Shown here: positions 2,387-49,087 of the stretch, one piece after another
Numbering within the stretch: position 1 is the stretch's first letter
Layout of the letters: each line of letters opens with the position of its first letter
From: Actinomadura sp. GC306
Lineage (GTDB): Bacteria > Actinomycetota > Actinomycetes > Streptosporangiales > Streptosporangiaceae
Length of the DNA: 64,000 nucleotides
Reading direction: 5' to 3'
Assembly (NCBI RefSeq): GCF_004348665.1
Contig: NZ_SMKM01000006.1
Span: 1 to 64,000 of the forward strand
Notes under the pieces: model-generated
What the model was told of the DNA's origin: nothing
Databases searched by the model: none
Seen by the model: only the letters and a program-made list of their open reading frames with translations
Program-made: the position numbers and the translations under genes

Positions 2387-3808
2387 CTATGCGCTGGCGA
2401 GGTGCCCGCGGGCAGTGCCCTTCGTCCGGGCGGCTTCCAACAGCCGGTTCAGCACCGGCACTGGCGATGTCGCTCCGTACTCGCGCCGCTGCGCCAGCGA
2501 TTTCTCCCACCGCCGCTGGAGTTTGACCTTGAGTCCGTCCCGCATGGTGTCGGAGACGTGGGAGTACACGCCTCGGATGCCCGGAAGCGTGTGCCCGAGC
2601 CGTTCGGCCTGAAGCACTTCCGGAACGCCGTCTTCGAGCATCCAGGTCTTGTGGCTGTGCCGCAGCCCATGCGGGGTGAGCCCTTCGACCAGCGGCAGCC
2701 ACACCGCAGGGGAGGAGTCCTCGTCCACGACGCGGATTCCCTTACCACGAGGCGGGACGAACGGCTGCCCGGGCACGGCGTCGGGCCAGGGTGGGATCGG
2801 CACCCCAGGCCATGCGGTCGTCTCGACCAGGATGCGCTTGCCGGCCTGCCGGGTCCCGCCGGGGTAGCGGCCGTCGGCCGCCGGTTGGAAGATCCGGCGG
2901 GCGTAGTTGGACCGCCGATGGTGCCCGCCGTCGGGGCTGAGGAACAGGAACTGCCCGCGACCCCCGCACGCAGGCGTCCGCCCCGGGCAGCCGCAGCGGC
3001 CTCGTGTCCGCGTGCTCTGGGCGGACACCAGGGCCGTCAGAAAAGGTGGCAGGTCCACGGGCCGGTGCGAGTCGTCCTTGGGCGGCACCATCTCCAGCCG
3101 TCCGGCCAGTTCGCGCAACTGCCAGTCGATCTGGATGCGGTCCAGTCGGCACGCGGGCCGCTCCAGCCCGTGGGCCTCGCCCCAACGCATGCCGGTGTAA
3201 GCGGTGAGGATGATCAGGACGAAGTCGTCATCGCGTCCCGAAAGCAACGCGCACCGCTCAGCGAGCAGCAGGGCCTGCAGGGACGTAGCCCACACCTTCT
3301 CCGGCCCGCGTACGGCGATGGTCCGCCGGGTGCGCTTACGTCCGCGCCCCCGCCGCTTCACCGCGACGTTGGACGCGACCATGCCCCGTTCTTTGGCATC
3401 GCCCAGGATCGTGCCAAGCAGCGATCGGGCGTCGGCTGCCGTACGGTGCGAGAACCCACGGGTCCGAGTGCGTTTCTCCCATGCGACGATCTCTTCTGGG
3501 CTGGTGAAGGTGCTGACGGGACGGTTCCCGAAGGCGGGGACGATGTGGTGGTCGATCAGGTACCGGTACTTGGCTTCGGTGGTGGCCTCTAGGTCCTGCC
3601 CGGCCCACCACAGCTCGACCCAGTCGGCCAGTAACGCCGCTCCGGCACGGGGATCGTTCCACATATGTCGCCGGATACCGGCTTCCTGTTCTTCTCCCCA
3701 GTGCAGGGCGGCCTGCTTGGTGTCGAAGCCCGACTGCGACGCGGTGCTCCCGTCCGGCCGCACGTACCGGACCCGCCACTTGTTGCCGCGCTTTTCGGCA
3801 TACGCCAT
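2387..3808 (-). CDS. int: Tyrosine-type site-specific integrase
   Basis: A phage-type integrase of 473 residues. Residues 1-45 (KRGNKWRVRYVRPDG ... GFDTKQAALHWGEEQEA) form the AP2-like arm-binding domain, followed by a SAM-like core-binding domain, then the catalytic domain with the first Arg in YTGMRWGEAHGL, HGLRHSHKTW (HxxR), LGHTLPGIRGVYSHV (second His and the Tyr nucleophile). A cysteine cluster (RCGCPGRTPACGG, around residue 275) interrupts the catalytic domain, as in many streptomycete integrases. It would catalyse recombination between the 44-bp attL and attR. It follows xis by 27 bases and reads toward the tRNA. All catalytic residues appear present. Confidence 0.95.
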   Translation of the reverse strand: MAYAEKRGNKWRVRYVRPDGSTASQSGFDTKQAALHWGEEQEAGIRRHMWNDPRAGAALLADWVELWWAGQDLEATTEAKYRYLIDHHIVPAFGNRPVSTFTSPEEIVAWEKRTRTRGFSHRTAADARSLLGTILGDAKERGMVASNVAVKRRGRGRKRTRRTIAVRGPEKVWATSLQALLLAERCALLSGRDDDFVLIILTAYTGMRWGEAHGLERPACRLDRIQIDWQLRELAGRLEMVPPKDDSHRPVDLPPFLTALVSAQSTRTRGRCGCPGRTPACGGRGQFLFLSPDGGHHRRSNYARRIFQPAADGRYPGGTRQAGKRILVETTAWPGVPIPPWPDAVPGQPFVPPRGKGIRVVDEDSSPAVWLPLVEGLTPHGLRHSHKTWMLEDGVPEVLQAERLGHTLPGIRGVYSHVSDTMRDGLKVKLQRRWEKSLAQRREYGATSPVPVLNRLLEAARTKGTARGHLASA

Positions 3809-5030: not shown

Positions 5031-5644
5031 GCCTGGCACGGGGCGGCAGACGGCTCCGGCTCCGGCTGGCCCGCTACTGGACCTGGAGCGGCCTGATCGC
5101 CGCCGCGATCACCCGGCTGTAGATGCTCCCGGCGCCCTGACCAGCACGAGCCGTCCCATCAACACCAGGAAGGAGAAAACCGGGGCCCGTGGAACCCCGC
5201 CCACCCGACGCGACAGGCGGGCCCAACCGGTGACCCGCCACCGAGAACCAATAAACGGTTGGGTCGCTCCGCGACCCAACCAACCTCACGAAATATCGAG
5301 GCTGAGCGCGTGGCGATCCAACGAAATGCTCGCTCCCCCCGCACTGGTGATCACATATTGTCGTGCTGTTTTTACCTGGCGGACTGCATGGGCGGACTCG
5401 TTTGTCAACAACGTAGGATGCTCACTTTTTGATAAAAACTGGTAAGGCTGCTGTTCGTGGCTGTTTGTGATCATTCCGTTTCCTAGACGATCTTGCGTGG
5501 CGTTCATGGGTCGGCCTACTCTCCATGTGTTCGAAGCGACGTATGAGCTGGCGGGCACGGATTGGGGTGTTCGAAACCCTGTGCCATGCGTGTCTCCGGC
5601 GTCGACGGTGTGTTGATGCGAGTCGGTGTCGGAGGCGATTTTCT
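5031..5644. other. AT-richer leader region before the RHS gene
   Basis: No gene supported. It contains a strong hairpin (5257-5281, listed separately) and a clearly AT-rich stretch at about 5330-5520 (TTTTTGATAAAAACTGG near 5428) that probably carries the promoter of the RHS gene. Open frames here (for example ATG at 5525, in frame with the RHS gene) lack a ribosome-binding site. Confidence 0.5.
5257..5281. terminator. Perfect 11-bp hairpin with 3-nt loop
   Basis: GGTTGGGTCGC, loop TCC, then GCGACCCAACC. The stem is perfect and GC-rich. There is no T-run, so it is either a factor-independent terminator of the actinomycete type or an insulating hairpin upstream of the RHS gene. Confidence 0.55.
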
Positions 5645-8600
5645 GTGCGCGGCGTTCGTTTCTTCGAGCGGTTGTCGAACCGGACGACGGCGCGTTTCAC
5701 CGCCGTTGTTGTCGCCGCTTCTCTGGTCCTCTCGCTTGGGGCCAGCGGAAATGTTGTTCCACCCGGAGCTATGTCGGCGGCGAACGTCGAAACGCCTGTG
5801 CAGCGTACGGGCTCGGCCAAGGGCAAGTCCCACCGCGTGACGACAGGGCAGACTGCCGCTGGCAACGACCGGACAAAGCGGATGCCCCGTCGGCCCAAGG
5901 GTGCACCGGGCCTGGAGAAGCCGCACACGCCCAAGGTCGTGAAGGACGTCAAGGGCAAGCGGGCGAAGCCCCCGCAGACGCGGCGGATATCCGAGCCGGA
6001 GCCGGTCGAAGTCACGGGGTTCGATCCGAAGAAGAGCGTTGAAAGTCCGGCGCGGAGAACGCGCTTCGGCACGCAGTACAAGAATCCTGACGGTACCTGG
6101 ACCGCGAAGTACAACACGCGTCCGGTCAACTACCAGGCTTCTGATGGGTCGTGGCAGCCGATCGACTCCACCCTGACGCCATCAGGCAACGGGCGCTTTC
6201 GAAACAAGGCGGACGGGAGCCGTGTAGACCTCTCGGCGCGTGCGGCCGGTACGGACTTGGCGTCCATCGAACTGGGGCAGGGAAAACGGTTCGGGTTCGG
6301 AGTGGAGGGTGCCGGCGATGTGACCGGTCAGGTCAAGGGCGACTCCATCCTCTACCAAAGAGTGCGGCCGGACGCGGATCTCAAGCTACAGGTCCTGAAT
6401 GGCGCCAGTGTCAAGGAGGAGATCGTCCTCCACTCCCGGGATGCGCCCTCCGAGTGGGTGTTCCCGCTGCGCACCGAAGGGGTGGCGCCACGGCTGGCGG
6501 CCGACGGCAGTGTCGAGCTCCTGGATGGTGCCGGGATCGTTGTCGCGCACATTCCGCACGGGTTCATGGTCGACTCCAAGATTCACCCCAAGTCCGGTGA
6601 TGCGGCCCGCTCGGACGAGGTGAACTACGCGCTGGAGCAGCGTGGCGGCAGCTGGGCCCTGAAGGTGTCCGCTGACCGCGAGTGGTTGGAGGACCCGGAC
6701 CGGGTGTACCCCGTGACGGTTGACCCGACCGCCGTGTGGAACTACGGAGCCACGCACGACACCTATGTGCAGACCGGTTATGGTTCTAGCCCTTACGCGG
6801 AGGCCGAACTCAAAGCGGGAACCTACAACGGTGGTTCCACAAAGGCAGCGACCTACCTGGCGTTCACTCAGGTCGACAATGAGCTTGCCTACAGCAAGGT
6901 CTACGACGTCAACCTGAACATCTACAACTGGTGGTCGTATTCATGTACGAAGACCCCGGTGACCGTGCACGGGGTAACCCAGCGGTGGGCGCAGTCCGAA
7001 CTGGCGGCCTATCCGGGCCCCAACTACGGATCGGCGCTCACCTCCAAGAGCTTTGCGAACGGGTTCATCGCGGAGGGGGCCGGGAGCAGTGCGTGCCCGG
7101 CCAAGTGGCAGAGCATCGACCTTGGGTCTGCTGGTGACAGTCTTGTCCAGGGGTGGGTCAACAAGACCAAGCCCAACTACGGCCTGACGGTGCGTGCATC
7201 GACGAAGAGTAGTTACGGATGGAAGAAGTTCGGAAGCCGCGAGTCGGCGAACGGCCCCTACCTGGTCATCACCTACAGCCCGTACAACGCGGCCTACGCG
7301 TTCGCCGAGAACCCGCCCAAGGTAGACCCGCCTGTACTGAACAACCAAGCCGGCTATGTGAAGGTAAAGGTCAAGAATAAGGGCCATGACGCCTGGACGG
7401 CCTCCGCCGGCTACCGGTTGACCTACGGTGTATTCGACAAATCGGGTAGACAGATTTACCACAGGCCCGCCGAGACGCCGGTCCCCCAGACCGTGTCCAA
7501 CGGCGAGACCGTGACGATAAATACAAAGATCAATCCGCTGCCGCCGGGTACGTGGACGATCAAGTTCGACATGCTGAACACCAGCTCGGGCGTGCTGTTC
7601 TCGCAATGGGGAGTCCCGCGCACCGCGGCGCTGTCGGTGACGGTCCCGGACATCCCATCGAAACTGAAGGAGATGTTCCCCAAGAACAATCACCGAGTCG
7701 GGACCCTGCGCCCTGAGCTGTTCGCCGAGGCCGAATCGGTAGACGCCTGGCCCTCGGCGAACGTCAATTATCAGTTCACTATATGCGCCCCGCCGTGGAT
7801 CGACTGGGAATGGTGTGAAAGTTCTCCCTGGCAGGACACTCCGAAATGGACCGTCCCGGCGGGAAAGCTGCAATGGGGCAAGGAATACTACTGGATGGTG
7901 CGGGTCAGCGACAGTGGCGGAACCGCTACTGACAGCCCCTTGTACAAGCTGCTCACCGCTGTGGAGCAACCCGCCATAACCTCGCATCTGGCGAGCCCGG
8001 CGTCGGATCAGCAGGAGTTCGACCATCAGGCTGGCAACTACACCACCACGGTCACCGATGCCGCAGTCGCGAACGTGGGTCCGCCTCTATCGGTGGTGCG
8101 GACCTACAACAGCCTTGACCCACGGACTTCGCACGCTTTCGGTGCCGGATGGACGACCCGGTTCGACATGAAGGTCGTCCCGGACGCCGACGGGACCGGC
8201 AACGTGGTCGTGACTTATCCGGACGGCCAGGAGGTCCGGTTCGCCAAGAACACCGACGGCACGTTCACCCCGCCGCCCGCCCGGCAGGCGACATTCGCCG
8301 CGGTGACGGGCGGCGGATGGAAACTGATGGACAAGGGCTCGACCAGTTACCTCTTCGATGACGCCGGGAAGCTGACCCGGATCACCGACCACAGGGGTCG
8401 TAGCCAGAACCTGCAGTACGGGACCGATGGGAAGCTGTCCAAGGTCACGGTCCCCAGCGGACGGTCACTGTCCTTCACTTGGACGGGAGGCCATGTAACC
8501 GCCGTCAGCACCGATCCCGTCAACGGTGAAGCGCTGACATGGACCTATGGCTATACCGATGACACCTTGACGAAGGTGTGCCCACCTACCTCGGCGACCG

Positions 8601-11600
8601 AGTGCACAACCTACGAGTACGAGGACGGCTCTCACTATCGAAGTACGGTTCTCGACGACAATCCGACCTCCTACTGGCGGTTGAACGAGTCCAGTGGCCG
8701 GGTGATCTCCAGTGCCGTCGCGGGGAACCTGGGCACTGACAATGGTGGAGCCACCAGCCTCACCCTGGGGCGGCCCGGTGCCCTGGCCGGGACCTCGGAC
8801 AGAGCGGTGGGATTTAACGGATCCGACAGCCGTGTACGGATGCCGGACCGCTACATCAGCCGGGAAGGCGGTTATCTTGCTGTCGAGGCCTGGTTCAGGA
8901 CCACCGGACAGGGCGTGATCCTGTCATACCAGAACGCCATGTACGGGTCTCAGGCCAACAAGTACACCCCGGCTCTTTACGTCGGTGCAGACGGCAAGTT
9001 GCGTGGTCAGTTCTGGAACGGCAGCAATACCAACGTGCTCACCTCCGCCGGTGCGGTCAACAACGGGCAATGGCATCATGCAGTCCTGTCGGGTCAGGGA
9101 AGTTCGCAGACCCTCTACCTGGATGGCCAGAAGGTCGGCACCCTCAACGGGACGATCGACCACCTTAATGAGCCTTATGTTTATATAGGAAGTGGATACA
9201 CCACCAAGGGGTGGGCTCAGACACCGCCCACTTCTGGCTGGTTCGACTTCGCCGGTGATCTGGACGAAGTAGCCATCTACGACAGGCCGCTGGGGCTGCC
9301 GGCCGTTCGCGCGCACTACGATGCCCGGCACACAACAAAGCAATTGACCAAGGTGACCAAACCGAGTGGCCGCGTCCAGGCCGTGAACGCCTACGACGTC
9401 GACACCGACCGGTTGGTCGAGCATGTCGATGCGAACGGAGGCACCTGGGAGATCCGTGCTCCGGTCTACTCCGGGAAGGTCGACGACCTCGAGCGGACCA
9501 TCGAGGTCAAGGACCCGCGGAACGGGATGCTCAAGTATGTGTACGAGCCGTTGCGCGGGAACAGGCTCATCTCCGAAACCGACCAGCTGGGCAAGACCAC
9601 AACGTACGCCTACGACACCAACGGCCAACTCGGCAAGATCACCGATGCCAACGGGAACGAAACGAACCTGTGGTTCGACGAGCGCGGCAACAAACGGTAC
9701 GAACAGCGCTGCGCCGATGTCGATACCTGCCATGCCCAGTACTGGAACTACTACCTCAATCCGGACGACGCGTTCGATCCGCGGAATGACCAGCTGACCC
9801 AGCGCGCAGACGGCCGTACCGTCAACCCGTATGCGAGCCCGTACACCACCGTCTGGGAGTACGACGTCCACGGTCAGCAGACCGCGGAGCTCTGGCCGGC
9901 GACGGACGACTATCCCTTCCGAGGCATCGCCTACAGCTACACCGACGGCACCGAAGCCGCGGAAGGCGGCGGCACCCAGCCCGCCGGGCTCCTGAAGCGC
10001 CGCAGCAAGGCCAATGGCGGGACGGCCCAAACCTATGCCTACAGCTCCGCCGGAGACCTGCTCTCGACGACCGACGCGGCCGGCAAGGTCACCAGGTTCG
10101 GATACGACGCGATCGGCAGGGTGATCAGCAGCACCGAGATCACGGATGCACATCCCCAGGGCGTCACCACGACCTATGGATACGACGGACGTGGCCACCT
10201 CCTGCGGGTGACCAAACCCGCGGTGGAGAACGAGGTCAGCGGCGCCACCCACACCCCTGACACTCGCTTCTCCTACGACGCCGACGGCAACAAGCTCACC
10301 GAGACGTTGAGCGACCTCACCGGCGGGGATCCCGAACGCCGCACCACCTACGGCTACAACGCCCACGGCCAGGTCGAGACCATCACTGACCCGGAAGGCG
10401 GCACGGAGGGCTATGAGTATGACGCCACGGGCGCGCGCACGAAACTGACTGACAAGAGCGGTACGCGATATGCCTTCGCCTACGACTTGCGCGGTCAACT
10501 GACCACCCGGACCTTGCAGGAATGGGTGGGGAACCCGGACGACCCGAGCCCGGCCACCGATGTGATCCTGGACTCCTACGCCTACGATCCCGGCGGCCGC
10601 CTGGGCTCCCACACCGACGCTATGGGACGTACGAAGGCCTACACCTACTACGGCGACGACCGGCTCGCCCAGGTCATCGCCACCGGGGTCAAGGTCAACG
10701 ACTCTGCCACTCCCAGGGACGTGGTGGTAGAAAGCCGCTCCTATGACGGTGCCGGTCATCTTGTGTCCCACGTGACGGGCGGAGGCAAGCACCGTACCGA
10801 CTACGAGTACGACCAGGTCGGGCAACTCATCGCCGAAACCGTCGACCCGGACGGGGCCGCCCGCCGTACCGACTACGACCTTGACCCCGACAACAACGTG
10901 ATCAGGACGGTCCGGAGCGGTGCGGACTCCGAACGCCAGGAGACCGCAGATTACGGGTACGACCCGATGGACCGGCCCGTCCGGCAGTCCATCGAGAATG
11001 GCGACGACAGCGTCGTCACGTCCCTCACCCGAGATCAGCGAGGGCTGGTCACCCAGATCGTCGACCCGCGAGGCAACGCGGTTGGAGTCGATCCCACCAC
11101 GTACACCACCACAATGCGGTACGACGCCGCCGGGCAACTGAAGGAGCGCCTCGAACCCGCTGTCCAGGTCGAACGCAACGGAGAACCGGGCGTCACCACC
11201 CGTCCTGCAACCCGGTACGGATACAACACCGCGGGCGAGCAGACTCACGTGACTGACCCCGAGGGCCGCACCGTCACCAACTCCTATGACAAGGCCGGCC
11301 GCCCAGTCTCGACACACCAGCCCTCGTACGACCCGCCTGTGGGTTCGACGATCATTCCCACCATCACCATGGAGTATGACGCGGCCGGTCGGCTTACCGA
11401 GCAGACCGACGCCCGAGGCGGTACGACCCGCCTCTACTATGACGCGCTGGGACGACAGACCCGACTCGAAGAGCCCCAGTTGGCCAACGAGAACCGTCCC
11501 GGCGAATGGAAGTTCGAGTACGACCTGGCTGGCGAACAGCTGTCGGCGACCGGCCCCACCGGGATCCGGACCGAGGCGACTTACGACGACCTCGGCAGGC

Positions 11601-14600
11601 AGATCACCCATACGGAAATCGACCGATACCCCGTACCGGCCGCCTACACCACCGAGCTCGCCTATGACGACGCCGGGAACCTCACCTCACGCACCCGCCC
11701 GGCCGGGGACAGCACCGAATACACCGTCAGCGGAGCCGGGGACATCACCGCGGTCACCAACTCCCGCGGCCACACGACCGAACTCGCCTACGACCTGGCC
11801 GGACGACTGACCAAGGTCACCGATCCTCTGGGCGTCAGCGTCATCGCGGAATTCGACCACGCCGGACGACAGATCAAAACACGCGACGTCGACGCGGCCG
11901 GAAACACCATTCGCACCTACGGATACGAGTACGACGCAGCCGGCAACCGGATCAGTGAGACGAGCCCCGAAGGCCACACCACTTACCGGGCTTACGACGC
12001 CCTCGACCGGCTCACGACACTCACGGAACCGGTCTCGGCGACCGGCACCATCGAAACCGGCTTCGGCTACGACGCCACGGGGCAGCGCACCCGCCTGACC
12101 GATGGCCGGGGCAACTCCACCATCACCACCTACAACACCCTCGGCCTCCCGGAAAAGACGATCGAACCGTCCACCGCCGCGCACGGAGACAACGCCGATC
12201 GCACGTGGACCACCAGCTACGACGCCACGGGCAACCCTGTCCACGAGGCCAAGCCGGGCGGCGTCACCGTCACCCGCACCTTCGACCAGCTGAACCGGCT
12301 CACCGAGCAGACCGGCACCGGAGCCGAGGCACCGACACTGGAGAAGCGGTTCGGCTACGACCTGGCCGGACGCCGGTTGCGCATCTCCGGCCCCGTCGCA
12401 GATCTCTTGTTCACCTACAACGACCGCGGACAACTGCTCAGCAGCATCAGCCCTGGAGGCAAGACCGCCCATTTCGCCTATGACGCCAACGGCCGCCTCC
12501 AGCAGCGCACCGATCCCGCGGGCCAGACCTCTCTGACCTGGAACGGTGAGGACCAGATCGTCACCACCAGCGACGCCATTACCGGGGGCTTCTCCACACG
12601 CACCTATGATGACGCCGGTCGCCTCAACGCCATCAGCACACAGAACGGCGGAAACACCGGAACCCGGACGTACGGCTACGACGATCTCGACCGGATCACC
12701 TCCGACGAACTGACGTCCTCCACCGGGACGCCCCTGGCGACCACCTCCTACGGCTACGACCTCGACGACAGGCTCACCGAGAAGACCACCACCGGAACCA
12801 TCGGAGCGGGCACGAACACCTACGCCTACGACCGGGCGGGCCGCCTCACCCAATGGGTCGCCCCGTCCGGGACGGAGACCGACTACGAATGGGACGCCTC
12901 CGGTAACCGCACCAAAGCGGGTGCCACCACCTACACCTACGACGAACGCAACCGCCTGACCTCCGACGGAACGAGCGGCTACACCTACACCGGCCGCGGC
13001 ACGCTGAAGACGATCGGCGGCACTGGCCAGAAGTTCGACGCCTTCGACCGGCTGATACAGGAAGGCACGGTCGACTACCGCTACGACGCACTGGACCGCA
13101 TCGCCACACGAACCGGTGACTCCGGCGCGACGAACTTCGTCTATGCCACACAGGAGAACGACGTCACCGCGGTCACCGATGACACCGGGATGGTCACGTC
13201 CGGATACCAGCGAACTCCCGATGGCGAACTACTCAGCGTGAAACAGGATGGCCAGGCTTACCACGCGCTGTCGGATCGCCACCAGGACCTCACCGCGCTG
13301 TACGACCCGGCCATCACCGCTCTCGCCGGCTCCACCGCCTATGACCCCTACGGCGGAACGATCGCACAGGCCGGCACGGGCACCCTTCTCGGATACCAGG
13401 GCGAATACACCGACCCTGCCAGCGGCCGCGTCAACATGCACGCCCGCTGGTACACCCCCGGCACCGGTAGCTTCGCCAGCCGCGACGACTGGACCCTCGA
13501 GCCCGACCCCAGCGTCCAAGCCAACCGCTACACCTACGCCAATGCCGCTCCGCTCAACTACACCGACCCAACGGGACATGCAGCCGCCCTCGCCTTCGTG
13601 GGCCTTGCGGTCGCCCTCGCCGGGGCACTGGCCGTCTCCCAGGCCTACCAGCAGAATCCGCCGACTTACACCTGGCCGTCCTGGGACTGGAGTTGGAGGT
13701 GGCCATGGAGTAGGAGTGCCGAGACTCCTTACAGCGTGTGGGACGTTCCCACCTTCCCCCCGTACTCTCCGGTAACTCCATGGCGCGGCACAGGAGGCGG
13801 CGGTGGAGGTGGAGGCGGCACCGTCGGCGCACTTGCGCGGCCGGGCATGGCACGGCCTGGAATAGCCCGTCCGCGACCGCCGAGGCCGTCACCCGCACAG
13901 ATCCAGCGGACCCTCGCTCGCAAGGCCAGGGACACCTACGCCCCTCGCCCCCCGTCCCGCCCCGGAGTCGGACAGAAGGTCATCGACAAGATCCGCGACA
14001 ACGCGGAGAAGGTCGTCAAGGTCGCCACCGGCGCCCAGAACACCGCCGGAACGCTCAGGGACGTGCAAAACGCACTCGAACCCCAGAACGCACGACCGGA
14101 CACCCCCTCAACAGATGGGCCCAGCACCACCACGGATGGCGATGACGACGGCTGTGTACACAAAAAGGACTACGGGAGGTTCATCGGTGACGGGGGTTAC
14201 CATACGCCAGCCCACGCTATCTACTGCAAGCCTACTGATGTCGATAAGGGCAGTCCGGCAGAGACCACCATTTTTCCTCCAGGGTGGCCGCAGGACGAAC
14301 ATGGACGCCCAACCAATTCTCCGATGGACCCGTTCAGGGGAAAGGCGTACAAGTATGCTCGCTGCCATCTGATCGCCGCCAGGCTCGGGGGGAGCGGTAA
14401 AGATCCGAATAATCTCGTGACCTGCGTGCACAATCCGACTAATAATTCTGGAATGAAAAGACTTGAAAGTCAAGTAAGAAAGGCAGTTAAGGGGGGGCAG
14501 ATCGTCGACTACACCGTAATTCCAATCTATCGAAGGGGTGACATTACTCCCGACGCGTTTCGTATGATCGCCAGAGGGAGGAGTCGCGATGGTGCTCCGG

Positions 14601-14683
14601 GGATTAGCTTCGATAAATGTGTATGGAATAGTCCGTCTCCGATAAATGGAAGAGTGGCTGATGGTGTCCATTGTAGACCTTGA
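5645..14683 (+). CDS. RHS-repeat polymorphic toxin with C-terminal nuclease domain
   Basis: A secreted giant of about 3012 residues. The GTG at 5645 has GGAGG 9 bases upstream and leads into FERLSNRTTARF then a hydrophobic span, a signal peptide; ATG at 5525 is a longer alternative. Domains in order: a DNRLRE-type domain (about 358-548, PTAVWNYGATHDTYVQTGYG), a DUF6531-like RHS opening (about 815), a LamG/concanavalin-like insert (about 1000-1220), tens of YD repeats (about 1230-2585), the RHS core end RYTYANAAPLNYTDPTGH (about 2640), one hydrophobic span, a polyglycine linker, and a tip (about 2835-3012) with RCHLIAARLGGSG and NNLVTC, resembling Endonuclea_NS_2 DNA/RNA non-specific nucleases. 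The RHS shell encloses and delivers the tip. The tip is much AT-richer than the shell. A SUKH immunity gene overlaps its 3' end. Confidence 0.9.
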   Translation: MRGVRFFERLSNRTTARFTAVVVAASLVLSLGASGNVVPPGAMSAANVETPVQRTGSAKGKSHRVTTGQTAAGNDRTKRMPRRPKGAPGLEKPHTPKVVKDVKGKRAKPPQTRRISEPEPVEVTGFDPKKSVESPARRTRFGTQYKNPDGTWTAKYNTRPVNYQASDGSWQPIDSTLTPSGNGRFRNKADGSRVDLSARAAGTDLASIELGQGKRFGFGVEGAGDVTGQVKGDSILYQRVRPDADLKLQVLNGASVKEEIVLHSRDAPSEWVFPLRTEGVAPRLAADGSVELLDGAGIVVAHIPHGFMVDSKIHPKSGDAARSDEVNYALEQRGGSWALKVSADREWLEDPDRVYPVTVDPTAVWNYGATHDTYVQTGYGSSPYAEAELKAGTYNGGSTKAATYLAFTQVDNELAYSKVYDVNLNIYNWWSYSCTKTPVTVHGVTQRWAQSELAAYPGPNYGSALTSKSFANGFIAEGAGSSACPAKWQSIDLGSAGDSLVQGWVNKTKPNYGLTVRASTKSSYGWKKFGSRESANGPYLVITYSPYNAAYAFAENPPKVDPPVLNNQAGYVKVKVKNKGHDAWTASAGYRLTYGVFDKSGRQIYHRPAETPVPQTVSNGETVTINTKINPLPPGTWTIKFDMLNTSSGVLFSQWGVPRTAALSVTVPDIPSKLKEMFPKNNHRVGTLRPELFAEAESVDAWPSANVNYQFTICAPPWIDWEWCESSPWQDTPKWTVPAGKLQWGKEYYWMVRVSDSGGTATDSPLYKLLTAVEQPAITSHLASPASDQQEFDHQAGNYTTTVTDAAVANVGPPLSVVRTYNSLDPRTSHAFGAGWTTRFDMKVVPDADGTGNVVVTYPDGQEVRFAKNTDGTFTPPPARQATFAAVTGGGWKLMDKGSTSYLFDDAGKLTRITDHRGRSQNLQYGTDGKLSKVTVPSGRSLSFTWTGGHVTAVSTDPVNGEALTWTYGYTDDTLTKVCPPTSATECTTYEYEDGSHYRSTVLDDNPTSYWRLNESSGRVISSAVAGNLGTDNGGATSLTLGRPGALAGTSDRAVGFNGSDSRVRMPDRYISREGGYLAVEAWFRTTGQGVILSYQNAMYGSQANKYTPALYVGADGKLRGQFWNGSNTNVLTSAGAVNNGQWHHAVLSGQGSSQTLYLDGQKVGTLNGTIDHLNEPYVYIGSGYTTKGWAQTPPTSGWFDFAGDLDEVAIYDRPLGLPAVRAHYDARHTTKQLTKVTKPSGRVQAVNAYDVDTDRLVEHVDANGGTWEIRAPVYSGKVDDLERTIEVKDPRNGMLKYVYEPLRGNRLISETDQLGKTTTYAYDTNGQLGKITDANGNETNLWFDERGNKRYEQRCADVDTCHAQYWNYYLNPDDAFDPRNDQLTQRADGRTVNPYASPYTTVWEYDVHGQQTAELWPATDDYPFRGIAYSYTDGTEAAEGGGTQPAGLLKRRSKANGGTAQTYAYSSAGDLLSTTDAAGKVTRFGYDAIGRVISSTEITDAHPQGVTTTYGYDGRGHLLRVTKPAVENEVSGATHTPDTRFSYDADGNKLTETLSDLTGGDPERRTTYGYNAHGQVETITDPEGGTEGYEYDATGARTKLTDKSGTRYAFAYDLRGQLTTRTLQEWVGNPDDPSPATDVILDSYAYDPGGRLGSHTDAMGRTKAYTYYGDDRLAQVIATGVKVNDSATPRDVVVESRSYDGAGHLVSHVTGGGKHRTDYEYDQVGQLIAETVDPDGAARRTDYDLDPDNNVIRTVRSGADSERQETADYGYDPMDRPVRQSIENGDDSVVTSLTRDQRGLVTQIVDPRGNAVGVDPTTYTTTMRYDAAGQLKERLEPAVQVERNGEPGVTTRPATRYGYNTAGEQTHVTDPEGRTVTNSYDKAGRPVSTHQPSYDPPVGSTIIPTITMEYDAAGRLTEQTDARGGTTRLYYDALGRQTRLEEPQLANENRPGEWKFEYDLAGEQLSATGPTGIRTEATYDDLGRQITHTEIDRYPVPAAYTTELAYDDAGNLTSRTRPAGDSTEYTVSGAGDITAVTNSRGHTTELAYDLAGRLTKVTDPLGVSVIAEFDHAGRQIKTRDVDAAGNTIRTYGYEYDAAGNRISETSPEGHTTYRAYDALDRLTTLTEPVSATGTIETGFGYDATGQRTRLTDGRGNSTITTYNTLGLPEKTIEPSTAAHGDNADRTWTTSYDATGNPVHEAKPGGVTVTRTFDQLNRLTEQTGTGAEAPTLEKRFGYDLAGRRLRISGPVADLLFTYNDRGQLLSSISPGGKTAHFAYDANGRLQQRTDPAGQTSLTWNGEDQIVTTSDAITGGFSTRTYDDAGRLNAISTQNGGNTGTRTYGYDDLDRITSDELTSSTGTPLATTSYGYDLDDRLTEKTTTGTIGAGTNTYAYDRAGRLTQWVAPSGTETDYEWDASGNRTKAGATTYTYDERNRLTSDGTSGYTYTGRGTLKTIGGTGQKFDAFDRLIQEGTVDYRYDALDRIATRTGDSGATNFVYATQENDVTAVTDDTGMVTSGYQRTPDGELLSVKQDGQAYHALSDRHQDLTALYDPAITALAGSTAYDPYGGTIAQAGTGTLLGYQGEYTDPASGRVNMHARWYTPGTGSFASRDDWTLEPDPSVQANRYTYANAAPLNYTDPTGHAAALAFVGLAVALAGALAVSQAYQQNPPTYTWPSWDWSWRWPWSRSAETPYSVWDVPTFPPYSPVTPWRGTGGGGGGGGGTVGALARPGMARPGIARPRPPRPSPAQIQRTLARKARDTYAPRPPSRPGVGQKVIDKIRDNAEKVVKVATGAQNTAGTLRDVQNALEPQNARPDTPSTDGPSTTTDGDDDGCVHKKDYGRFIGDGGYHTPAHAIYCKPTDVDKGSPAETTIFPPGWPQDEHGRPTNSPMDPFRGKAYKYARCHLIAARLGGSGKDPNNLVTCVHNPTNNSGMKRLESQVRKAVKGGQIVDYTVIPIYRRGDITPDAFRMIARGRSRDGAPGISFDKCVWNSPSPINGRVADGVHCRP

Positions 14684-23650: not shown

Positions 23651-24585
23651 ATGACAGCCCCGAGGAAGTACTCCACAGAGCTGCGTGAACGCGCGGTCCG
23701 GATGGTGTTTGAGCTGCGTGAGCAGACCGATGTGAGGACCGGCTCGATCGCCCGGGTGGCCGACCAGCTCGGGACCTGGGGCCGGTATGCCGACGTCGAT
23801 GGCGGGCAGCGCCCCGGGACCATGACCAGCGACGCACAAGGATCGCCGAACTGGAGCGGGAGAACCGTGAGTTGCGGCGGGCGAACGAGATCCTGAAGGC
23901 CGCCAGCGCTTATTTCACCCGGCAACCCGACCCGAAACTGCCGAGCTGGTCGAGTTCATCGATACTCACCGGGAGCAGTTCGGTGTCGAGCCGGTCTGCA
24001 CGGTGCTGGAGTGTGCGCCCTCGACGTATTGGGCGGCCAGGAAACGCGAGCTGGAACCATCTGCTCGTGCGGTGCGTGCGAATCATCGAAGGATGATTCT
24101 GCGGGTGTCGGTAGGTCCCGGCCAGCGGGTTTATGGTGCGTGGAAGGTGTGGACGCAGCTGAAGCGTGAACTGGGCATCGCCGGGGCGAGCGCTGCCCGC
24201 AAGCGGCCCCGTACCCACCTCGGCGGGACCGATCGGCCAGGTGACCTGCTGGAACCCGACTTCACCGCGGACGCGCCCAACCGGCGGTGGGTCGCCGACA
24301 TCATCTATGTCGACACCGCCGCCGGGTGGGCGTACACCGCGTTCGTCCAGGACCTGTTCTCCCGGGTCATTGCGGGGTGGCAGGTCGTCGCCCATTTGGG
24401 TGCCGAGCCGGATTTGGACGCGTTGGAGATGGCGATCTGGTCCCGCGGCGGCATCGGTGACGGACTGGTCCACCATTTCGATCGCGGCACGCAATACACC
24501 TGTAGTCGGTACGCCGAACGCTTTGATCAGATCGGCGCTGCCCGTTCGGTCGGCGACAAGAACGACTCCTTTGTGACGAGCTCCG
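23651..24585 (+). pseudogene. Degenerate IS3-family transposase (OrfA and OrfB)
   Basis: OrfA begins at 23651 (RKYSTELRERAVRMVFELRE, the IS3 HTH) and loses frame after about 23790; ELRRANEILKAASAYF continues near 23865 in another frame. OrfB follows from about 23946: VEFIDTHREQFGVEPVC, PNRRWVADIIYVDTAAGWAY (first Asp), GDGLVHHFDRGTQYT (second Asp), then GDKNDSF and an abrupt switch to unrelated sequence before the catalytic Glu. Several frame breaks and a missing C-terminus show it is dead. No terminal repeats were found. It separates the DUF262 gene from the steroid cluster. Confidence 0.8.
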
Positions 24586-24737
24586 ACAGTTGCGGGCTTG
24601 GAGTCCGTCGAGCGGTATTTGCATGCGTCTTCTGCATACCCAGGCCGAGTCGGAGGCGCGGCCGAACTGGCAGCCCGGCCCGCCGCCGAAGCCCCTCCGA
24701 TCGACATGCCTGAGCCCGACTCCTTGGCCTTCCCGGG

Positions 24738-32790: not shown

Positions 32791-32914
32791 ATGGCCGCCC
32801 GCCCCGCCGCGACCTAGCGTCGTTCTCCAGGAGATGCACGTGACGACCGGACGGTGCTCGCACCGCATTCCCGCCCTGTCCGGCTCCGCCGGGCCCTGAT
32901 CCTGGAGTTCTCCC

Positions 32915-33010
32915 GTGACCACATCCCGGCAAACCCCGGACGACGAGGTCCGCGTGATCGAGGCGGCCGCGCCGCCGACCAGGCACGTGCGCGGCCGGCT
33001 GGCGCTGTGA
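32915..33010 (+). pseudogene. Short remnant of a kshA-like oxygenase gene
   Basis: A 31-codon ORF with its own ribosome-binding site (GGAG, 7 bases before GTG) whose TGA overlaps the kshB GTG (GTGA). Its sequence VRVIEAAAPPTRHVRG resembles the start of KshA, the Rieske oxygenase of 3-ketosteroid 9-alpha-hydroxylase, which in mycobacteria reads 'VREIDAG..PTRYARG' before WHCLG. Here the Rieske and mononuclear-iron parts are absent and a stop follows after RLAL. It looks like a kshA gene with nearly all of its body deleted while start and stop remain. The family resemblance is short, so treat it as a good suggestion. Confidence 0.55.
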
Positions 33011-34047
33011 CCGATATCGGGGCCTGCACGGTGACGGTCCTCGACGTCATCGAGGAGACCCGGGACGCCCGGTCGCTGGTGCTCGAAGCGCCCGAGGATG
33101 TGCGCGACCGGTTCGGCTACCGGCCGGGCCAGTTTCTGACGTTGCGGATACCGGCCGCCGGAGGTTCCGGAACCGCCCGCTGCTACTCGCTGTCCAGCGC
33201 ACCGGGCGTGGATCCGCACATGAAGATCACGGTGAAGCGGGTCTCCGGCGGCACCGGGTCGAACTGGATCTGCGACCACGTCCGCCCGGGCGACACCCTC
33301 CAGGTGCTGCCCCCGGCGGGCCTGTTCACGCCGGAGCGGCTGGACGGCCGCCTCTTCCTCTTCGCCGGCGGCAGCGGCATCACCCCGGTGATGTCCATCA
33401 TCAAGGCCGTGCTGGCGCGCCCCGAGGGGAGCGCGGTGCTGTGCTACGCCAACCGCGACGAGTCGTCGGTGATCTTCGCCGCCGAACTGCGCCGGCTGGT
33501 GGAGCGCCATCCCGGGCGGCTCCAGGTCGTCCACTGGCTGGAAAGCGTCCAAGGGCTGCCCACTGCCGCCGCCCTGGCCGCTCTCGCCGCCCCGCACGCG
33601 GACCGGGACGCCGCGCTCGTCTGCGGTCCGGAACCGTTCATGGACGCGGTCGCGGACGCGATGCGAGACGTCGGCCTGCCACGGGAAAGAGTGATCGTGG
33701 AGCGCTTCCATTCGCTCACCGGCGACCCGTTCGCCGAGCCCGAGCCGCTTCCCGCGGCGTCCGGCGGCGATGCCGGAGCACGGGTCACGGTCACTCTCGA
33801 CGGCGAGCGGCACTCCCTCCCCTGGCCGTCCGGGACTCCGTTGCTCGACGTCCTGCTGGCCAATGGCATCAGGGCGCCGTTCTCCTGCCGGGAGGGCGCC
33901 TGCAGCGCCTGCGCCTGCCAGGTCGTGTCCGGCGAGGTGAAGATGCTGCGCAACGACGTCCTCGAAGAAGAGGACCTCGCGGAGGGCTGGGTCCTGGGCT
34001 GCCAGTCGCTGCCGGTGACCGAGGACGTCGAAGTCACCTACGACTGA
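33007..34047 (+). CDS. kshB: 3-ketosteroid 9-alpha-hydroxylase reductase component
   Basis: 346 residues of the ferredoxin-NAD reductase class with three domains in order: FAD-binding barrel (RPGQFLTLRIP, RCYSLSSAP), NAD-binding domain (FAGGSGITPVMSII, LVCGPEPFMDAV) and a C-terminal plant-type [2Fe-2S] domain (CREGACSACACQV ... LGCQSLPV, four Cys ligands). KshB passes electrons from NADH to KshA for 9-alpha-hydroxylation of 4-androstenedione-type steroids. The GTG start overlaps the upstream remnant ORF. The partner kshA is not seen intact in the window. Confidence 0.88.
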   Translation: MTDIGACTVTVLDVIEETRDARSLVLEAPEDVRDRFGYRPGQFLTLRIPAAGGSGTARCYSLSSAPGVDPHMKITVKRVSGGTGSNWICDHVRPGDTLQVLPPAGLFTPERLDGRLFLFAGGSGITPVMSIIKAVLARPEGSAVLCYANRDESSVIFAAELRRLVERHPGRLQVVHWLESVQGLPTAAALAALAAPHADRDAALVCGPEPFMDAVADAMRDVGLPRERVIVERFHSLTGDPFAEPEPLPAASGGDAGARVTVTLDGERHSLPWPSGTPLLDVLLANGIRAPFSCREGACSACACQVVSGEVKMLRNDVLEEEDLAEGWVLGCQSLPVTEDVEVTYD

Positions 34048-40014: not shown

Positions 40015-40173
40015 TTGGCGTTGACGATCGATCTCGCAGGCCGCATCGTCCTGGTCACGGGCGGCACGCGCGGAGTGGGGGCGGGAATCGCCCGGACCTT
40101 CATGCAGGCCGGGGCGACCGTGGAGGTCCAGTACGCGCCGGGGGTCGAGATGCTCCGCGGAACGGCGCCCTGA
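40015..40173 (+). pseudogene. N-terminal remnant of a short-chain dehydrogenase
   Basis: A 52-codon ORF starting with TTG at 40015 (GGAGAGG 7 bases upstream). It reads LAGRIVLVTGGTRGVGAGIA then RTFMQAGATVEV, the complete first strand and TGxxxGxG nucleotide loop of an SDR, but then ends (APGVEMLRGTAP, stop) before any NNAG or YxxxK part. Promoter operator, ribosome-binding site and start are intact, so the body was lost by internal deletion. An SDR in this position next to echA20 recalls Rv3549c. TTG at 40021 is another possible start. Confidence 0.7.
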
Positions 40174-45473: not shown

Positions 45474-46624
45474 GACGGCGCTGGGGCGGCGGCCCCGGCG
45501 CCCGCGCGCGGCGTCCCCCGGTCCGCCGCCAGGAGCCGCCGGCGCTGCTCGTGCGGCTGCCCGAACAGCTGCGACGTGGCGTGTGCGCGTTTGAACAGCA
45601 GTTGCGCGTCGTGCTCCCAGGTGATGGCGATGCCGCCGTGCAACTGGACCGTCTCGGCGGCCACCGCGTTCAGCGCGTCGGAGCACCACGCCTTGGCCAT
45701 CGCCGCCTTCTCGGCGAAGTCGGCCGCGCCGTGAGCCGCGGACCAGGCCGCCGCCCAGGACAGCGTCCGTGACGTCTCGACCTGCACGAGCATGTCGGCC
45801 ATGCGGTGCTTGAGCGCCTGGAACGAGCCGATCGGGCGGCCGAACTGCTCGCGATCCTTGGCGTACGCCACCGTCATGTCCAGGCCCCGTTGGGCCGCCC
45901 CGACCTGCAGTGCGGTCACGGCGACGGCCGCGATGTCCCGTAGCTCGGCGAGCGGCACGCCGGCGTCCTCGCACAGCGGGCGTGCGGGCGCGGCCCGGAA
46001 GTCGATCCGCGCGAACCGCAGGGTGAGGTCCAGGCCGGTCATGGGGGTGCGGCGGACCCCACTCGCCTCGGGATCGACCTCGTACAGGCCGACCAGCCCG
46101 TCCTCCCGCACGGCCACGACGAGCAGGATGTCGGCGTCGGCGCCGTCGAGGACCAGATGGGCCGATCCGGTCAGCATGGTCCCGTCTCCCGCGCCGGCGG
46201 CGCGCACACCGGAGCGGTCCGGATGCCAGTGCCCGTCGGGGGAGGCCCAGGCCAGCGCGGCCACGGCCGTTCCCGCCGCGATGTCCGGAAGCAGGCGCGA
46301 GCAGGCATCGGCGTCGCCCGCCCGCAGGACCGCCTGCGCGCCGAGGACCGCCGAGCCGAGCAGCGGGGACGGCGTGAGCGCGTAACCCAGCCGTTCCAGC
46401 ACCACGTGGGTTTCGAACAGGGAGAACCCCGCGCCTCCGTACTGCTCCGGGATCGCCAGGGCGGCGGCGCCGATCTGCTCGCATAGCGTCGACCACAGGT
46501 CTGGATCGTGGCCGCGCGGGCCCTGTATCGCCCGGCGTACGGCCTCGCCATCGCTGTTCCGATCCAAGAGGGATCGGACGGTGGCGTCGAGCGCGGCCTG
46601 CTCCTCACTTAGCGCAAAGTACAC
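45470..46624 (-). CDS. fadE33: Acyl-CoA dehydrogenase, FadE33-like
   Basis: 384 residues of the acyl-CoA dehydrogenase fold. DPDLWSTLCEQIGAAALAIP, VGAAQRGLDMTVAYAKDREQ, FGRPIGSFQALKHRMADMLV and LHGGIAITWEHDAQLLFKRA align closely with mycobacterial FadE33 of the HIP pathway. Such subunits pair with a partner (FadE32) in an alpha2-beta2 enzyme; no FadE32 is seen in the window. GTG at 46624 is set by GAGGAGGG 5 bases upstream. A 59-residue ORF lies just upstream. Confidence 0.82.
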   Translation of the reverse strand: MYFALSEEQAALDATVRSLLDRNSDGEAVRRAIQGPRGHDPDLWSTLCEQIGAAALAIPEQYGGAGFSLFETHVVLERLGYALTPSPLLGSAVLGAQAVLRAGDADACSRLLPDIAAGTAVAALAWASPDGHWHPDRSGVRAAGAGDGTMLTGSAHLVLDGADADILLVVAVREDGLVGLYEVDPEASGVRRTPMTGLDLTLRFARIDFRAAPARPLCEDAGVPLAELRDIAAVAVTALQVGAAQRGLDMTVAYAKDREQFGRPIGSFQALKHRMADMLVQVETSRTLSWAAAWSAAHGAADFAEKAAMAKAWCSDALNAVAAETVQLHGGIAITWEHDAQLLFKRAHATSQLFGQPHEQRRRLLAADRGTPRAGAGAAAPAPS

Positions 46625-46635
46625 AGAATCCCTCC

Positions 46636-46815
46636 TCAGGCGGGCTTCGCGTGCGCCGGCGACGCGGCGGTGATGGCGGCCAGTACCCGGGAGCGGTGGA
46701 ACCGGGCCGTGCCCCAGGCGGAGACGAGAGCGCGGATCTTCGTGATCCACAGGCCCAGGTCGAACTCCTCGGTGCGGCCGGTGGCGCCGTGCGCCCGCAG
46801 CGCGGTGCGGTTCAC
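46636..46815 (-). CDS. Small protein of unknown function or gene remnant
   Basis: 59 residues, not recognised (ALRAHGATGRTEEFDLG; ITKIRALVSAWG; FHRSRVLAAI). GTG at 46815 overlaps the TGA of the upstream crotonase gene (GTGA), and the stop is 11 bases before fadE33, so it is placed like a real coupled gene. Composition and phrase structure recall acyl-CoA dehydrogenase C-termini. As three neighbouring genes survive only as start-plus-stop remnants, it may be another such remnant. Confidence 0.45.
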   Translation of the reverse strand: MNRTALRAHGATGRTEEFDLGLWITKIRALVSAWGTARFHRSRVLAAITAASPAHAKPA

Positions 46816-49012: not shown

Positions 49013-49016
<4 letters not shown>

Positions 49017-49087
49017 CCGCAGCCGAGACCGGACAGCCCGTCCCGCCCACCGGCGAGGTGGTGTCGGTGAGCAGCCGGCACCCCTGA
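49013..49087 (+). pseudogene. Internal-deletion remnant of ipdF
   Basis: A 24-codon ORF with GTG overlapping the fadE30 stop. Its last residues, TGEVVSVSSRHP, match the C-terminus of mycobacterial IpdF (ending TGEVISVSCQHP), the SDR that normally lies directly beside fadE30. The first ~12 codons read like an N-terminus (TAAETGQPVPP). The whole Rossmann body is missing, yet start, frame and stop are kept. The identity rests on a 12-residue match plus synteny. It is 34 bases before fadA6. Confidence 0.65.

Follow-up and report, generated by a model that had tools for sequence, protein, structure and literature searches.

The kshB gene in the 64,000-nucleotide stretch of Actinomadura sp. GC306 DNA analyzed here (the window) is overlapped at its start by an open reading frame of only 31 codons, which raises the question of whether this frame is what remains of kshA and, if so, what it still contributes. 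The elements concerned are the following.

32904-32907 (+): GGAG ribosome-binding site of the kshA stub; the same GGAG and spacing precede the intact kshA of genome G063
32915-33010 (+): kshA remnant of 31 codons with a GTG start; KshA codons 1-27, then RLAL and TGA
approx. 32992-32999 (+): 4-nt insertion (CGGC) relative to G063, from comparison of the junction
33006-33007 (+): deletion joint; about 1,092-1,096 bp of G063 kshA missing here
33007-34047 (+): kshB, reductase of 3-ketosteroid 9-alpha-hydroxylase; intact and constrained, as judged from its domains and a pN/pS of 0.16 versus G063

Read from the GTG at 32915, the stub encodes VTTSRQTPDDEVRVIEAAAPPTRHVRGRLAL and ends at the TGA at 33008-33010, and the GTGA at 33007-33010 is common to the stop of the stub and the start of kshB. 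The predicted duplex of its GGAG site is equal in the window and G063 (-5.9 kcal/mol). The short frame, its ribosome-binding site, and the overlap with kshB were thus found as the original prediction had described them.

The locus was compared with four kshB loci of the same genus, namely those of G063 (Actinomadura sp. WMMA1423, NZ_CP041244.1), which is the nearest complete genome, of the draft genomes G036 (Actinomadura sp. CNU-125, NZ_MKJY01000022.1) and G022, and of G024. Identity to the window is about 93-94% of the DNA for G063 and 86%, 84%, and 64% of residues for G036, G022, and G024, respectively. A full kshA precedes kshB in all four relatives, and the kshB of G022 is itself truncated internally. 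In G063, this place is occupied by an intact kshA of 392 codons, whose product begins VTTSQHALDDEVRVIEAAAPPTRYARG. The stub and its upstream DNA align to the promoter and start of this gene (264 bp, 89%) as well as to those of G036 and G022, revealing homology to KshA at the matching locus of the relatives. The proposal that the frame is the start of KshA is supported by the match of its residues to KshA N termini over the first 27 positions, and similarity to KshA is clear in the alignment to all four genomes. The clean open reading frame with its ribosome-binding site might also be read as a short gene unrelated to kshA or, as the frame of kshB is open upstream as far as 32854, as the N-terminal part of KshB. 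We regard both as extremely improbable, since residues 1-27 of the stub align without a gap to KshA residues 1-27 at the kshA locus, and the kshB of G063 uses the same start codon, so that a longer kshB frame would run into kshA in that genome. Within the genome under study, the region has a single further match, 37 bp on contig C65, which lies inside an unrelated YdcF-like gene and was dismissed as chance.

Window positions 32999 and 33007 correspond to positions 45588 and 46685, respectively, of the reverse-complemented G063 locus, which puts the missing DNA at 1,096 bp; counting the 8 nt TGGCGCTG that precede the joint as kshA codons 28-30 (TGGCACTG in G063) reduces the deletion to ~1,092 bp. 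The sequence shared across the joint is at most 1 nt. The window retains the upstream region, the ribosome-binding site, the start, and the first 27 codons, after which it resumes at the kshB start codon. The claim that the body of kshA was lost with start and stop kept therefore held, and the ~1.1 kb estimated for the missing part lies close to the 1.09 kb or so missing relative to G063. In KshA, residue 28 is the first of the Rieske domain, and the catalytic domain follows from residue 130, so that the stub ends before both and nothing functional of the enzyme is left in it. It has no Pfam match, lacks the Rieske ligands and the mononuclear iron site, and thus contains neither the Rieske [2Fe-2S] nor the KshA_C domain of a functional KshA.

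In 15 of 16 loci from several actinobacterial genera, kshA and kshB are separated by a small open reading frame of about 80 codons, the exception being G063.

L035, 8951-9185; also L111-L118, L142, L154, L172, L174, L178, L182, and L183: small open reading frame between kshA and kshB

It is conserved and carries Cys motifs (CHLCGSC, SLAHTEVQW), and no family was found for it in Pfam or NCBIfam. A similar small frame follows kshA on contig C533 of the genome under study. As G063 and the window both lack this frame, its loss probably preceded the kshA deletion, judging from the sequences compared. An earlier version of the event, a 1.4 kb deletion also taking the small frame, had been derived from G036 and G022 and was replaced because the nearer relative G063 already lacks it.

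The same form of loss is found at three other places in the steroid cluster of the window.

40015-40173 (+): SDR scar; about 52 of 261 codons kept (the first 38 and last 15 of the G063 gene), in frame
46636-46809 (-): fadE scar; in-frame fusion of the start of one fadE with the final 57 codons of the following fadE
49013-49087 (+): ipdF scar VTAAETGQPVPPTGEVVSVSSRHP; 24 of 267 codons of G063 ipdF kept, in frame

The parallel that had been drawn with ipdF, in which start and stop are kept and the body is lost, is accordingly sound. This gene is intact in G022 and G063, and G036 has an independent deletion of its body with other breakpoints. At the fadE scar, about 2 kb are missing relative to G063, and the conserved HGAIGYTEE has become HGATGRTEE. 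G036 (contig C22) and G022 (contig C17) show apparent sharp deletions of their own in kshB, kstD, SDR, enoyl-CoA hydratase, and fadE genes (L042-L051), which may be real decay or errors of the draft assemblies. As most of these are out of frame, a general rule of in-frame deletions across the three genomes was rejected.

The missing kshA body could in principle reflect a false join in the assembly, the organism itself carrying an intact kshA. With 554 contigs, the assembly is a draft; G036 and G022, also drafts, show many sharp deletions in the cluster as well, whereas hardly any segment of the window, if any, is missing from the complete G063. However, genome completeness is 99.8%, and the missing DNA is absent elsewhere in the assembly; outside this locus, the paralogues on contigs C443 (78%) and C533 (73%) match best. 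Moreover, the missing segment has a G+C content of 0.67, and 99% of windows of the same length in the cluster lie above this value, which makes dropout of high-G+C DNA unlikely, and such dropout was rejected as the cause of a false join at kshA.

The state of the remaining sequence also bears on this point. The pN/pS versus G063 is 0.58 for the stub (26 codons, too short for more than a weak test alone) and 0.45 for the fadE scar (57 codons), compared with 0.10-0.26 for nearly all intact genes, the highest of which reach 0.34 and 0.38. All 22 distinct KshA sequences have Y or F at position 24 and A at position 25, whereas the stub has H and V (Y24H, A25V), although the stub is short and the KshA N terminus is partly variable. 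With changes polarized by G036 and G022, and on small numbers, 7 of 76 residues in the stub and fadE scar changed on the window branch; the corresponding figure for intact genes is 184 of 9093 (p about 0.001), and that for the stub alone is 3 of 26 (p 0.016). None of the 76 changed on the G063 branch. Constraint on the stub thus appears relaxed, within the limits of these small numbers, and Y24H, A25V, and the 4-nt insertion are as expected once constraint is lost. Such decay argues against an assembly error, as a false join predicts none of it, and we consider a false join improbable. The deletion looks real and not recent on this comparison of sequences. Overall, it is highly probable that 32915-33010 is the leftover of a real kshA after an internal deletion of ~1.09 kb; beyond this, we infer a shared KshB and reinitiation at kshB, as set out below.

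The retained kshB starts with GTG at 33007 and encodes 346 aa with FAD_binding_6, NAD_binding_1, and Fer2 (plant-type 2Fe-2S) domains; changes on the window branch are limited to 4 of 344 residues. The original prediction held that the oxygenase partner of KshB is missing. No kshA body is present within the window, so this part stands, but a search of the genome found two intact kshA genes elsewhere, on C443 (389 aa) and C533 (383 aa). Their products are 76% and 55% identical, respectively, to the lost KshA type as found in G063, and both genes are constrained versus their G063 orthologues (pN/pS of 0.13 and 0.25). As G063 has all three kshA types, the genome under study lost only one. A second kshB is present on contig C529 (60%), which counts against the use of this KshB by the other KshA proteins. 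In rhodococci, kshA genes number three to seven and kshB genes are few, and a single KshB works in vitro with each of five KshA homologues of R. rhodochrous (PMC4064121). Since the kshB of the window is still constrained, its use in trans is the natural reading, and the remaining KshB would supply electrons to the KshA proteins of C443 and C533. The loss of kshA would then be an ordinary event, tolerable through the two other intact copies. Beside the second kshA of G063 lies a P450 gene of about 1.2 kb that is missing, at gene borders, from the genome under study (L197 at ~15649, C443 about 55649).

As for the stub itself, translation from the kept kshA site probably carries ribosomes to the GTGA overlap, where kshB would be started by termination-reinitiation because the deletion took the upstream sequence of kshB and, with it, apparently its good ribosome-binding site. 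The best duplex of the region upstream of kshB with the 16S tail is -4.1 kcal/mol, and it contains no GGAG, compared with -7.4 kcal/mol in G063 and -8.7 kcal/mol in G036 and G022; the values of other genes in the window vary widely. Furthermore, the kshB start is predicted to lie within an 80-nt stretch of strong structure (-35.4 kcal/mol), which a ribosome reading the stub would open, after which it could restart at GTGA. Together, the overlap and the seemingly weak site of kshB point to translational coupling of the two frames, and a literature search on coupling and pseudogenes returned nothing direct. The peptide itself is presumably without function, and the stub most likely now acts only as a translated leader. 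Its frame ends at the TGA of GTGA only with the ~4 extra nucleotides (CGGC), without which it would be out of frame; with a chance of 1 in 3, this agreement could be fortuitous.

A stronger version holds that the short frame is a functional leader under selection, its start, stop, and frame having been kept because translation downstream needs it. The seemingly weak ribosome-binding site of kshB and the GTGA overlap agree with this, as do the four scars of the cluster (kshA, SDR, fadE, and ipdF), all of which keep start and stop in frame. If each joint were random, four in frame of four would be expected about once in 80 cases, which is suggestive only, and the in-frame cases were noticed owing to their likeness. 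Set against the mostly out-of-frame deletions of G036 and G022, this reading seems to us rather unlikely. It is an extension of the best explanation, a kshA remnant that is translated as a leader, and does not contradict it. The corresponding claim for the cluster, that the losses of kshA, SDR, the fadE-fadE pair, and ipdF were filtered for in-frame joints because the mini-frames are needed as leaders for overlapping downstream genes, is likewise doubtful.

Several observations concern the surroundings. The steroid cluster (24735-64000 in the window and about 52700-60000 on C443) is 91-95% identical to G063, whereas contigs C65 and C508 are only 77-87% identical, and the cluster may, from these identities, have been exchanged between lineages. 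A fragment of an integrase-core (IS3-like) transposase at 24003-24735 adjoins the start of similarity to G063, G036, and G022, and the first 24.7 kb of the window are not collinear with these genomes. This part contains a 3052-codon open reading frame (5525-14683, +) with many YD (RHS-like) repeats and a nuclease-like C-terminal part, next to which an integrase-like frame lies on the opposite strand (2387-3808).

A steroid-degrading Actinomadura has thus very probably lost the kshA paired with this kshB and kept the reductase, which is consistent with a KshB common to several KshA paralogues. An annotation pipeline would overlook such a stub or label it a hypothetical protein. Taken by itself, the stub is an unremarkable remnant of a gene in a redundant system. 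What merits a further look is only the recurrence of in-frame scars: with four in one cluster, they offer a natural case of gene loss, small but testable, in which avoidance of polarity may have acted. If true, selection would have yielded the same design as the nonpolar knockouts of geneticists.

In an in-frame, nonpolar operon deletion, the start and stop of a gene are kept, its body is removed, and the next gene is left intact. The locus resembles this construct of bacterial genetics in that kshA start and stop are kept, the body is gone, and kshB is intact; it differs in that the stub is natural, decayed, and free of an engineering scar and regained its frame with the help of the 4-nt insertion. 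Compared with KshA itself (Pfam Rieske PF00355 and KshA_C PF19298; related solved structures PDB 4qdc and 2zyl), the stub shares the first 27 residues, the place before kshB, the upstream region, and the ribosome-binding site but lacks the Rieske and catalytic domains. Although here the kshA adjoining its kshB was deleted, the Actinomadura case is like the shared KshB of Rhodococcus (PMC4064121) in its surplus of kshA genes per reductase and in a reductase presumably usable by several oxygenases.
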